Of a stretch of DNA of 64,000 nt, positions 46,568 through 49,185 are shown one piece after another (the stretch's first letter is position 1; every line of letters starts with the position of its first letter). The DNA is from Maricaulis maris MCS10 (GTDB lineage Bacteria; Pseudomonadota; Alphaproteobacteria; Caulobacterales; Maricaulaceae). The notes under the pieces are model-generated. The model was not told the origin of the DNA, did no database searches, and saw nothing but the letters and a program-made list of their open reading frames with translations. Position numbers and translations under genes: made by a program. The DNA lies in contig NC_008347.1 of the NCBI RefSeq assembly GCF_000014745.1, forward strand, positions 2,186,001 through 2,250,000, written 5' to 3'.

Positions 46568-46648
46568 ATCAAGAAGCAACTCGGCTGGTTCGACAACCGG
46601 GGTGAATTCGACGAGCAGGTGCCGATCGTGACCCGCCTCAAAGACTGA
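46568..46648 (+). pseudogene. GIY-YIG nuclease remnant 1 (internal deletion)
   Basis: Reads IKKQLGWFDNRGEFDEQVPI then VTRLKD and stop. This joins the middle (KQLGW) and the end (FDxRGxFDEQVPIVTRL) of the protein encoded at 46854-47195. The missing part lies between TGGTACGA and TGGTTCGA in the full gene, suggesting deletion by short homology. A 124-bp element follows 25 bases later. Confidence 0.85.
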
Positions 46649-46673
46649 GAATTTTCTGCAATGATGAGCTAAA

Positions 46674-46797
46674 CGTCGGTCCCGGATCGCGCTTCGCGCG
46701 TCCGGGAAAAATTTGTGTGTGACGCGTCAAACAACCCGGCTCATTTCCCCCGGACGAAGCCCGGCTAAAGCCGGGCGCAGATCCGGGGCCGACGGGA
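46674..46797. repeat. 124-bp double-hairpin element, copy 1
   Basis: Starts CGTCGG and ends CCGACGGGA; inverted ends. First hairpin TCCCGGA-TCGCGC-TTCG-CGCG-TCCGGGA, second built on GCCCGGC/GCCGGGC within CCCCGGA/TCCGGGG. Follows GIY-YIG remnant 1. Confidence 0.92.
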
Positions 46798-46853
46798 CGA
46801 GCAGCAAAACTCTCCCATTGCGATAAATCACGCATTAAGCAATTATAGATTGC

Positions 46854-47195
46854 ATGACGATGCTCGCGCCGGAAGCCGTCTATCTCTTGTTCAGCCGCCC
46901 GCACGGCGCGCTCTATGTCGGCCGCACGAAGGACCTGATCTGGCGAACCTGGCAGCATCGTACCGGCGCAATTCCCGGTCACACCAAGCGCCATGGCATC
47001 AAGCAACTCGGCTGGTACGAATGGCATGACGGCTTCGAATCCGCCGCCCACCGCGAATACCTGATCAAGCGCTGGCGACGCGCCTGGAAGATCGCCCTGA
47101 TCGAAGCGATGAACCCCGGCTGGAAAGACCTCTGGTTCGACATCCGCGGTGATTTCGACGAACAGGTGCCGATTGTGACCCGCCTCGAAGATTGA
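46854..47195 (+). CDS. GIY-YIG nuclease family protein (complete copy)
   Basis: 113 residues, UPF0213/YhbQ-like. GIY-YIG block: VYLLFSRPHGALYVGRTKDL, with catalytic-type Arg in IWRTWQHR and Glu in AHREYLIKRW. The C-terminal KIALIEAMNPGWKDLW is typical of the family. Single-domain GIY-YIG proteins have unclear roles; some nick DNA. Here a 124-bp palindromic element starts 25 bases after the stop, and two truncated copies of the same gene flank it with the same downstream element, so gene and element appear to travel together. Confidence 0.92.
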   Translation: MTMLAPEAVYLLFSRPHGALYVGRTKDLIWRTWQHRTGAIPGHTKRHGIKQLGWYEWHDGFESAAHREYLIKRWRRAWKIALIEAMNPGWKDLWFDIRGDFDEQVPIVTRLED

Positions 47196-47220
47196 GCGTT
47201 TTCTGAGTCGATGAGCTCAA

Positions 47221-47344
47221 CGTCGGTCCCGGATCGCGCTTCGCGCGTCCGGGAAAAATGTGTGTACAAAACTTCCAACATCCCAGCTCATTTCCCCCGG
47301 ACGAAGCCCGGCGAAAGCCGGGCGCAGATCCGGGGCCGACGGGA
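47221..47344. repeat. 124-bp double-hairpin element, copy 2
   Basis: Same structure and ends as copy 1, with differences mainly between the two hairpins (GTGTACAAAACTTCCAACATCC region). Follows the complete GIY-YIG gene. Confidence 0.92.
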
Positions 47345-47401
47345 TGTGCAGCAGTCGCTCCGACCCAAGGCGGTCGACGGCACCTCCGCCAGGTGAGCCT
47401 T

Positions 47402-47464
47402 CAATTCGACAACCGGGGTAAATTCGACGAGCAGGTGCCAATCATCTCACCCATCGAGCACTGA
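47402..47464 (+). pseudogene. GIY-YIG nuclease remnant 2 (3' end only)
   Basis: Reads QFDNRGKFDEQVPIISPIEH then stop: the last 20 or so codons of the GIY-YIG gene, more diverged than remnant 1. The element copy 3 begins 25 bases after its stop, the same spacing as in the other two units. Confidence 0.82.
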
Positions 47465-47489
47465 GACTCGTCTGCAATGATGAGCTAAA

Positions 47490-47613
47490 CGTCGGTCCCG
47501 GATCGCGCTGCGCGCGTCCGGGAAAAATTTGTGTGTGACGCGTCTATCAACCCAGCTCATTTCCCCCGGACGAAGCCCGGCAAAAGCCGGGCGCAGTTCC
47601 GGGGCCGACGGGA
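47490..47613. repeat. 124-bp double-hairpin element, copy 3
   Basis: As copy 1; the loop of the first hairpin reads TGCG rather than TTCG. Follows GIY-YIG remnant 2. Confidence 0.92.
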
Positions 47614-48038
47614 TGTGCAGCAGCCAATTCAACGCCATAAACTTGGCAGTCACCCGGTGCGTGTCTTCAAGACGCCCATCTAGCCGGAACGGCCCCGGTG
47701 CGAGCACATTCCTGCTCAAGTCCACAACGACTGTATGTTTCCAATCTAAGATGCACCTGCAGGGCACCATCTGCGGCTCTCGGCAAATCGGACAACTGAA
47801 CAGTCTGCACAAAGTAGCACGGCTCCTTTTGACCGAGCAGGATGCCAATTTCACTTTGCCCTGCCATCACGATCCAAATTCCATAAATCGGTCGTTCAAA
47901 CGCTTGTCCCAACCCCACAAGCAGCTCTTCGGTCGAATTCACAGTCCCGAGCGACAACCGCTCCGCATGGGGAAGCCCAGCCTCCTCCGCGGCACAAATA
48001 CTGTCTCGGGTGAGACTAACTTTTGTTCCCGAGTTCAT
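47614..48038 (-). pseudogene. hypothetical gene, possibly frameshifted and truncated by element copy 3
   Basis: The frame starting with an ATG at 48038 (AGGGGGA upstream) gives 123 residues to a stop at 47667: NSGTKVSLTRDSICAAEEAG and PIYGIWIVMAGQSEIGILLG look coding. After about residue 100 (near 47745) the next frame looks more protein-like (VVVDLSRNVLAPGPFRLDGR then LEDTHRVTAKFMAL), so a single-base shift is likely. That second frame runs on into the repeat copy 3, which may have replaced the true 3' end. GC is lower than in neighbours, suggesting transfer. No family recognised. Confidence 0.45.
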
Positions 48039-48108
48039 GCGAAAGTCCCCCTGGCGAAAGCTGCCCGCTAATCGTTCGAGTACCGGGATTGCCAATCATT
48101 GTGCCGAC

Positions 48109-48230
48109 CGTTGGTCCCGGATCGCGCTGCGCGCGTCCGGGAAAAATATGTGTGTGACGCGTCTAACAACCCGGCTCTTTTCCCCCGGACGAAGCCCGGC
48201 AAAAGCCGGGCGCAGATCCGGGGCCGACGA
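48109..48230. repeat. 122-bp double-hairpin element, copy 4 (solo)
   Basis: Same element without any GIY-YIG sequence upstream; the left end reads CGTTGG instead of CGTCGG and the right end is GACGA. Confidence 0.9.
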
Positions 48231-48267
48231 GCGGGTCAACCACTCGCCTGTTCAACACCCACCCCAC

Positions 48268-48360
48268 GCGAACAAAAACCGAACAATCACACATCCCTCC
48301 CTTGGGATCGGGCGCCAATCGGTCCAGTATGTCGCATTGAATCGGTTCGACAAAAAGGGG
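48268..48360. repeat. 93-bp direct repeat, left copy
   Basis: Near-identical to 49093-49185, which holds the start and ribosome site of the exported-protein gene. Read on the minus strand this copy keeps AGGGAGGG and GTG and encodes VIVRFLFAWGGC before a stop, so it looks like a truncated duplicate of that gene start. The rest of 48039-48368 apart from element copy 4 holds nothing else. Confidence 0.88.
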
Positions 48361-48368
48361 CGGCGGCC

Positions 48369-49115
48369 CTATCCGTCACAGATTGCGGATGCACCTGCGT
48401 CCGCCAGTCTTGATGCCAGGCGGGCCAGGGCCTCCTCCCAGCCTGACGGGCTGGCGAGAAAGACAGTGCCGAGCGGTCGGCCAATCAGATCGCCCTGCCC
48501 GGCACCATGACCGCAACGCCCCGGTGTTCGCGTCGCCCCATCGATCGAAGCGCCATCGCGCCAATGCCAGCAGGTTTCCTCGCCCGAGGCATCTCGCCCC
48601 CAGACGCTGGTAACTCCACCTTCTTGTACAAGACCGACCCGGCTCTCTACCCCGAGCACTGTGAAGCCGGTCGCAGACAGGATTGTCCGCCACCGGCCAT
48701 CCTCACTCTGACTGAGCAGCCAGTGCTCGGCCCCATGCCAGCGGAGATTGGCTATCACCAACTCGTCCTGCCCGTCGGCATTGAAATCCCGGACCCCCAG
48801 GCGGAGCAAACCGCCCATCGTCTCATAGGTCGTAGCCACAGACCCGTTCCAGACCGGCTCCAGTCGGACCTCACCATCGCGCCTTGCATACAGCAGCACA
48901 CGCACATCGCCAGCGACACGCTGGGCACTGACGATCAATTCCGTCTCATCATCCAGCTGAAAGGAGCGCGGCCCGACAAGGCAGTGAAACGGGTTCAGGG
49001 CGGCACCAGAACCCGCCGGCACCGTGAGTATCTCAATAGTCGGCGCATCCTGAGCGCCGACCTGCCCTGCCACTGAGGCCAGCATCACCCATGCGAACAA
49101 AAAACGAACAATCAC
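48369..49115 (-). CDS. exported protein with FG-GAP-like repeat, unknown function
   Basis: 248 residues from a GTG with AGGGAGGG just upstream. Signal peptide (FLFAWVMLASVAGQVGA) then a beta-rich domain; DFNADGQDELVIANL is the calcium-binding-like motif of FG-GAP/VCBS repeats. Two Cys in EETCWHWR and PGRCGHG may pair. Probably periplasmic. Its start region is duplicated at 48268-48360, so the gene is bracketed by 93-bp direct repeats. It diverges from the helicase gene. Confidence 0.75.
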   Translation of the reverse strand: MIVRFLFAWVMLASVAGQVGAQDAPTIEILTVPAGSGAALNPFHCLVGPRSFQLDDETELIVSAQRVAGDVRVLLYARRDGEVRLEPVWNGSVATTYETMGGLLRLGVRDFNADGQDELVIANLRWHGAEHWLLSQSEDGRWRTILSATGFTVLGVESRVGLVQEGGVTSVWGRDASGEETCWHWRDGASIDGATRTPGRCGHGAGQGDLIGRPLGTVFLASPSGWEEALARLASRLADAGASAICDG

Positions 49116-49185
49116 ACATCCCTCCCTTGGGATCGGGCGCCAATCAGGTCAGTATGACGGATTGAATCGGTTCGACAAACAGGGG
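49093..49185. repeat. 93-bp direct repeat, right copy (gene start of 48369-49115)
   Basis: Contains the GTG start and ribosome site of the exported-protein gene and about 70 bases upstream. Pairs with 48268-48360 in the same orientation. Confidence 0.88.

Follow-up and report, generated by a model that had tools for sequence, protein, structure and literature searches.

Small GIY-YIG nuclease genes in Maricaulis maris MCS10 and its relatives lie beside or between palindromic repeats that carry a terminal CGTC-type tag, and each gene tends to have a repeat family of its own. We lean, if only slightly, towards reading nuclease and hairpins as a pair of the RAYT/REPIN kind built around another enzyme, in which the nuclease would nick its tagged hairpins and repeat dimers would be moved. 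This pattern points to the enzyme as the partner so far lacking for a widespread class of bacterial repeats.

One array of this kind occupies positions 46568-48230 of the window, the 64,000-nucleotide stretch of M. maris contig NC_008347.1 that was analyzed. Four elements fall within a span of 1.6 kb (46674-46794, 47221-47341, 47490-47610, and 48109-48229), all of them REPIN-like dimers of two CGTC-tagged hairpins arranged as inverted pairs (4/4). They start with CGTCGG or CGTTGG (the left tag of the fourth element), are 88-95% identical to one another, and have inverted ends (CGTCGGTCCCGGATC ... GATCCGGGGCCGACG in copy 1); each half forms a hairpin with a second hairpin nested in its loop. 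Folded as single strands with DNA parameters and compared with 200 dinucleotide shuffles per element, the elements gave z scores of -4.1 to -6.7, with 0/200 shuffles equaling any of them. The fourth element is solo, with no GIY-YIG sequence adjoining it. An earlier, sequence-only reading of this locus had described the four copies, their inverted ends and internal hairpins, and the isolated fourth copy, all of which we recovered; its element length of 124 bp becomes 121 bp, in every copy, when measured from tag to tag.

The other three elements each follow GIY-YIG sequence on the forward strand. An intact gene of 113 aa occupies 46854-47195 (+), and two remnants occupy 46574-46648 (+) and 47405-47464 (+). 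The second remnant is reduced to the 19 terminal codons plus the stop, and the first to a KQLGW stretch and the 20 terminal codons. The earlier reading took this first copy for a gene with an internal deletion, and it lacks its 5' end and start codon as well as an internal stretch, so the array comprises one whole gene, as had been described, and two remnants rather than the end-only one alone. The left edge of the first remnant also matches a 32-nt stretch in a relative lacking a GIY gene at that place. Stop codons ending at 46648, 47195, and 47464 precede elements starting at 46674, 47221, and 47490, and the intervening spacers (46649-46673, 47196-47220, and 47465-47489) measure exactly 25 nt in 3/3 units, which bears out the constant spacing claimed for them. 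No strand is assigned to the elements, the spacers, or the palindrome described next.

An AT-rich palindrome (GCAATTATAGATTGC, 46839-46853), a possible promoter or operator, abuts the start codon of the intact gene. Palindromes of this type (TGCAATTATAAATTGCA-like) end 1-6 nt before the start codon at 11/105 GIY-YIG genes and at 0/640 control ORFs, by a pattern written after examples had been seen; besides the window gene, the genes preceded by one include those of L005, L067, L083, L092, L093, L103, L106, L110, and L183. With their TATAAT-like boxes, they may represent leaderless promoters subject to autoregulation. Separately, the window contains a 98-bp direct repeat (48263-48360 and 49088-49185, 92% identical) that brackets a 248-aa reverse-strand ORF (48369-49115) upstream of uvrD. 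Four relatives (G018, G015, G016, and G006) have a single copy of this repeat at the site, so the ORF may have come with the duplication.

The product of the intact gene belongs to the GIY-YIG superfamily (PF01541, 39.4 bits against a cut-off of 22.6; Y10, Y21, R31, E68, and N87). It carries all ten of the residues conserved at 97% or more across 106 proteins, namely Y10, Y21, G23, R31, H35, E68, K72, R76, K79, and N87, and we take its conserved Tyr, Arg, Glu, and Asn positions to be catalytic-type GIY-YIG residues. The nearest solved structures by sequence are the UPF0213 proteins 1zg2 (E 5.9e-7) and 1ywl (E 4.9e-4), which share the GIY-YIG domain with the window protein and are labeled hypothetical proteins in the PDB. 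NCBIfam returned no family for the window protein at E<=0.001.

We searched the genome that holds the window (G000, one contig of 3,368,780 bases) with the PF01541 profile and found matches at 8 places. Two were excluded from the window gene's family count: L004 (G000:C1:1973511-1976714), where the match lies in a 221-aa frame with no phmmer match to the window protein, and L007, a 664-aa frame whose product we infer to be UvrC-like. A lack of the element at most family genes had been named beforehand as the outcome that would speak against a nuclease-repeat module; near all six remaining genes, the window gene included, lies a palindromic element some 115-160 bp long (6/6), though mostly from repeat families other than the window's. 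Elements lie on both sides of L002, L005, L006, and the window gene, on the 5' side only of L001, and on the 3' side only of L003. These families are mostly separate, as the sequence following the tag illustrates: GGTCCCGG in the window family, ATCCTGACG at L001 and L003, ATCCCCGTC/ATCCCTGAT at L005, ATCCCGGAC at L002, and ATCCCACGG at L006. The repeats of L006 escape our tag rule, though the L006 sequence begins CGTCATCCCACGG.

Copies also occur away from the genes. Outside the array, the window element has one near-full-length copy in G000 (73% identity) and partial matches consisting of 25 left halves and 4 right halves (E<=0.01). The L005 repeat, family C, is found at 36 places or more over at least 100 bp, by a hand count that includes the two gene-flanking copies; such dispersal, like the two inverted hairpins with spacer seen in the window elements, is a REPIN trait. 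Nearly all of its copies share their two end points to within a few bases, and two copies stop short at query position 105. Of the 36 full-length family-C repeats so listed, 24 fall at about 835-1137 kb of G000:C1, a 0.3-Mb stretch that also includes the family-C GIY-YIG gene, at 971 kb. Window-type (family-A) half-repeats are common there too (10/30), so this stretch may be a generally repeat-rich region and not the product of local hopping.

To assess the association in relatives, we assembled two sets of loci. The order-level set began with 118 loci, of which 113 had a match, yielding 108 distinct ORFs, 106 that scored at least 60, and 102 with full flanks; drawn from the top of a longer list, it leans toward proteins nearer the window's. 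The named set comprises the best 80 of 525 confirmed loci, with titles that include alpha-, beta-, gamma-, and deltaproteobacteria, Chloroflexota, Nitrospirae, and Nitrospinae; 76 had enough flank, and L322, L339, L342, and L357 were dropped. Controls were mechanically called ORFs of at least 90 aa from forty 20-kb stretches, 20 in G000 and 20 in relatives, and one control match proved to be a nuclease gene itself (DUF559, L123).

Among these top-ranked order-level loci, the same repeat occurs upstream and downstream of 79/102 genes, compared with 12/637 controls (Fisher p about 1e-71) and 7/224 noncoding-rich controls (p about 1e-45). The corresponding figure in the named genomes is 53/76 testable genes from the best 80 of 525. 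No two-sided repeat was seen at 23/102 order-level and 23/76 named genes in these top-ranked sets. An inverted repeat scoring at least 14 lies within 300 bp of 49/102 order-level genes from the same top-ranked loci, 27/640 control ORFs, and 21/227 noncoding-rich ORFs. Both flanks bear tagged repeats in a Neisseria MAG (L279), Rhodanobacter (L281), and a Dehalococcoidia MAG (L287), and Bergeriella (L343) has a clear tagged repeat on the 3' side and a degenerate one on the 5' side. Across 101 genomes, with at most 8 candidates scored per genome, a close gene and a window-type repeat co-occur weakly: G006, G015, G018, and G087 have window-element matches (E<=1e-8) and no close gene, and the reverse is true of G008 and G012.

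The repeats share a tag. In a census of every tetramer directly outside a hairpin of at least 7 bp, CGTC was the commonest at the named loci (48/80, the best 80 of 525), with CTGG (27) and ATGG (22) next; the latter two are the reverse complements of CCAG and CCAT, and most loci have a CCA-type tail. In the order-level set of top-ranked loci, GTCA (51/106) and TGGG (45) lead. The stem there is counted one base late because the outermost pair is often mismatched. We give counts under two rules. When CGTC or TGTC is allowed within 2 nt of a hairpin of at least 7 bp, a tagged hairpin lies within 350 bp of 64/76 named-set genes (from the best 80 of 525), with 11/74, 15/74, and 10/73 in the next outward bins, and of 62/102 top-ranked order-level genes, with 14/99, 13/99, and 15/92 outward; the value near control ORFs is 79/637. 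Hairpins are thus concentrated beside GIY-YIG genes and not in the outer bins, contrary to the possibility, also raised from the window, that elements are distributed without relation to these genes. When the tag must lie directly outside the stem, the counts are 57/80 for the named set (best 80 of 525), 18/106 for the top-ranked order-level loci, and 21/637 for controls.

This tag is that of the CGTC REPs, surveyed by Di Nocera et al. in 2013 (PMC3733652), and the repeats are to that extent already on record, contrary to the earlier impression that no published description existed. As the retrieved portions of that survey describe them, CGTC REPs consist of a CGTC/TGTC tag, a hairpin, and a CCA tail, are mostly paired in opposite orientation, are widespread and predominant in Alphaproteobacteria, and include dRS3 as CGTC-1 (PMC3733652). 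Families 1-4 follow a stricter rule, comprising a terminal unpaired CGTC (or TGTC/CCTC) tag, an 8-9-bp stem starting with A-T pairs, a 4-5-nt loop, and the CCA tail, in the same portions of the text (PMC3733652). L108 (CGTCATCCCGACGAAAGTCGGGACCCA) fits the stem, loop, and tail parts of this rule. The window elements resemble CGTC REPs in their terminal CGTC-type tag (CGTCGG or CGTTGG) and inverted pairing, but they have GG after the tag, a 7-bp outer stem, a long loop with a nested hairpin, and a GGGAAAA tail in which the CCA tail is absent. Since they break the published stem, loop, and tail rules, we call them CGTC-tagged and do not assign them to families 1-4. The survey's verdict, in its retrieved text, was that CGTC REPs "apparently lack a dedicated transposase" (PMC3733652). 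That text links no transposase to them, names no GIY-YIG gene, and contains the string "giy" 0 times (PMC3733652), whereas here a GIY-YIG gene lies between the repeats. With this arrangement in most of the cases tested, the question of the missing transposase becomes directly testable.

The repeats are also private to their genes. For tagged-repeat heads, agreement between both flanks of the same gene is 0.88 (n=36), compared with 0.55 for different GIY genes of one genome (n=30 pairs, some of the loci having been assigned to genomes by hand) and 0.54 for pairs from different genomes. A general background of REP sequences, considered as the cause of the association, is rejected by these gene-private repeats and by the control ORF counts. 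Across 133 genes, repeat identity can be predicted from that of the proteins (Mantel rho 0.31, against at most 0.15 in 500 permutations). This co-variation fits recognition of a cognate repeat by each protein, and joint inheritance would give the same pattern.

Comparison of related species, which had been proposed as a check on element presence and absence, revealed gain and loss of whole units at four sites, those of L002, L005, L006, and the window. The L002 site has element-gene-element in G000 and G015, a single element and no gene in G010 and G018, and neither in G016; the sequence past the one element of G018 continues as does that past the second element of G000, such that at this site the unit boundaries are the element ends. 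The L005 site has element-gene-element in G000 and G010, a solo element in G016, a broken element in G018, and none in G015, with the gene in opposite orientation at a contig end in G006. At the L006 site, the cassette is present in G000 and G018, G013 and G014 have the gene with partial one-sided elements, and G016 has a solo element in a displaced position. The comparison is truncated by a contig end at the L002 site for G006 and G009, at the L005 site for G006 and G008, and at the L006 site for G015 and G007.

The window site was compared across 15 genus members. The array recurs in G010, where it has two intact genes, four elements, and a 546-bp period, whereas a 3' relic of the gene and a single split element are present in G018. 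In G001 and G012, inverted half-repeats surround the gene; in G014 the gene lies beyond uvrD; and the other ten have neither gene nor element. Element identity is higher within genomes (0.88-0.95 in G000 and 0.91-0.94 in G010) than from one of these genomes to the other (0.84-0.89), so the arrays have been homogenized or re-made. Comparison of occupied with empty sites revealed no target-site duplication or insertion footprint, and direct-repeat recombination explains the presence and absence of units equally; the turnover is consistent with both movement and recombination.

A second nuclease family shows a parallel arrangement. DUF559 (PF04480) genes have the same repeat on both flanks at 39/71 loci, compared with 12/637 controls (p about 6e-34); examples include L123:12375-12746 in G000, L254, L405, and further genes of relatives. 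Among the 71 are the gene from which this search started, namely the control match noted above, and a few close orthologues. A first screen by regular expression, which recognized 10/30 loci and scored 1/10, was replaced by homology-based calls that gave 17/29 and then the present figure. The DUF559 repeats belong to another class, of CCCCTCAYCC type: the 10-mer CCCCTCATCC is found at 19/71 loci versus 5/637 controls, and the YGTC tag at 2/71. At L438 (G025:C1:813600-817600), two DUF559 genes stand in tandem, each with flanking repeats of more than 300 bp, in a window-like array. This looks like a second nuclease-repeat pairing, and it doubles as a specificity control for the GIY-YIG pairing. 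Among the best-ranked matches of our literature search, nothing concerned DUF559 genes with flanking repeats.

The explanation we lean to would run as follows. Each family gene and its own CGTC-tagged palindromic repeats, often head-to-head REPIN-like dimers, would form one unit. The nuclease would recognize its own family's tagged hairpin, most likely in single-stranded form, as on the lagging-strand template or in incoming DNA, and would nick it at or near the tag. The nick would then allow a dimer, or a gene between dimers, to be copied or moved to new sites, with dispersed repeats mobilized in trans. Later recombination between direct repeats would generate tandem arrays such as that in the window, or remove the gene and leave a solo element. 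The RAYT/REP-like module proposed from the window extends, as a pairing, far beyond that locus (79/102; 53/76), and cleavage and mobility are what its arrangement would predict. Against this explanation stand L001 and L003, which have an element on one side only, and the strict tag rule, under which just 18/106 top-ranked order-level genes qualify (controls 21/637). A broader version, in which GIY-YIG nucleases would be the mobilizing enzymes of the CGTC REP superfamily through non-HUH chemistry, DUF559 may serve another class, and the strategy would have arisen repeatedly, is one we put forward tentatively and at somewhat less than even confidence.

A sequence-specific single-strand nuclease whose repeats are target sites that tune transformation or ssDNA traffic, and are not themselves moved, is the alternative that survives best; we regard it as doubtful, if by no means far-fetched. 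A 2025 study in Nature Communications, "Discovery of the widespread site-specific single-stranded nuclease family Ssn," reportedly describes such a GIY-YIG nuclease with a cognate repeat. Its target sequence in Neisseria is said to be the NTS, with thousands of homologues reportedly having target sequences of their own, and the nuclease is reportedly presented as acting on transformation and as a tool. The same domain and the same repeat class recur here, Neisseriaceae loci included (L279, L343; dRS3 is CGTC-1). G000 also has a ComEC-domain gene, a weak point in favor since 10/14 control genomes have one, and we set ComEC aside as uninformative support for a transformation model. Repeats that serve as targets only leave unexplained why the gene lies between copies of its own repeat, why the families are private, and why full-length copies are dispersed. 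A target-site role and mobility may both be true.

Passive linkage we consider improbable. Here the gene would have landed between repeats, and recombination would duplicate, delete, and homogenize the units while the protein acted independently of them. The clean loss and gain of one gene-plus-element unit at direct repeats, and the greater similarity of arrays within than between genomes, are as this model would have them; yet genes in many lineages are flanked (79/102 and 53/76), each by its own family and with one common tag, and DUF559 genes of the same genomes pair with another repeat class. Still less probable, in our judgment, is that the repeats act at the RNA level as terminators or mRNA stabilizers of the gene. 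Three window elements do lie 25 nt behind a stop codon and fold stably (with DNA parameters), but the same repeat also occurs 5' of most genes, for which reason a terminator-only role is rejected, and gene-free dispersed copies exist. The idea that a RAYT (Y1 HUH transposase) moves the repeats, with GIY-YIG genes nearby for other reasons, is hardly credible: it accords with the REPIN-like dimers and with Y1 matches in 23/101 genomes, but G000 has no Y1_Tnp (PF01797) match at E<=0.001, which rules out a RAYT as resident mover there save for a divergent Y1 protein that could escape the profile, and the 2013 survey, in its retrieved text, reports no tyrosine-transposase gene flanked by CGTC units (PMC3733652).

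These readings can be tested on a small scale, with short oligonucleotides and a protein about 110 residues long, and the presence/absence series within one genus offers ready-made strain pairs. Should the enzyme move its repeats, REP mobility would have a second chemistry; should it only cut them, the repeats would be a genome-wide code for single-strand cleavage. A GIY-YIG nuclease with a cognate repeat is probably a known kind already, given the Ssn work, in which, as in the window family, a GIY-YIG gene is reportedly accompanied by a repeated cognate sequence. To Ssn as reported, the window locus would add cassettes of the element-gene-element form, arrays in tandem, solo elements, and turnover of whole units. 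Among the best-ranked matches in the open-licence literature, no title concerned GIY-YIG genes with palindromic repeats, and the term "giy" is absent from the retrieved text of PMC12306157, PMC6006769, and PMC5082802. As far as this literature search reaches, the link that would make these nucleases the enzyme lacking from CGTC REPs is new, as are the dimer cassettes, the tandem arrays, and the unit turnover. RAYT/REPIN systems, in the portions of their descriptions retrieved (PMC2817692, PMC3116915), resemble the window system in having a small enzyme gene between its own palindromic repeats and dispersed inverted pairs; the window system differs in having a GIY-YIG enzyme in place of an HUH Y1 enzyme, a CGTC tag in place of GTAG, and a host genome, G000, with no Y1 match.
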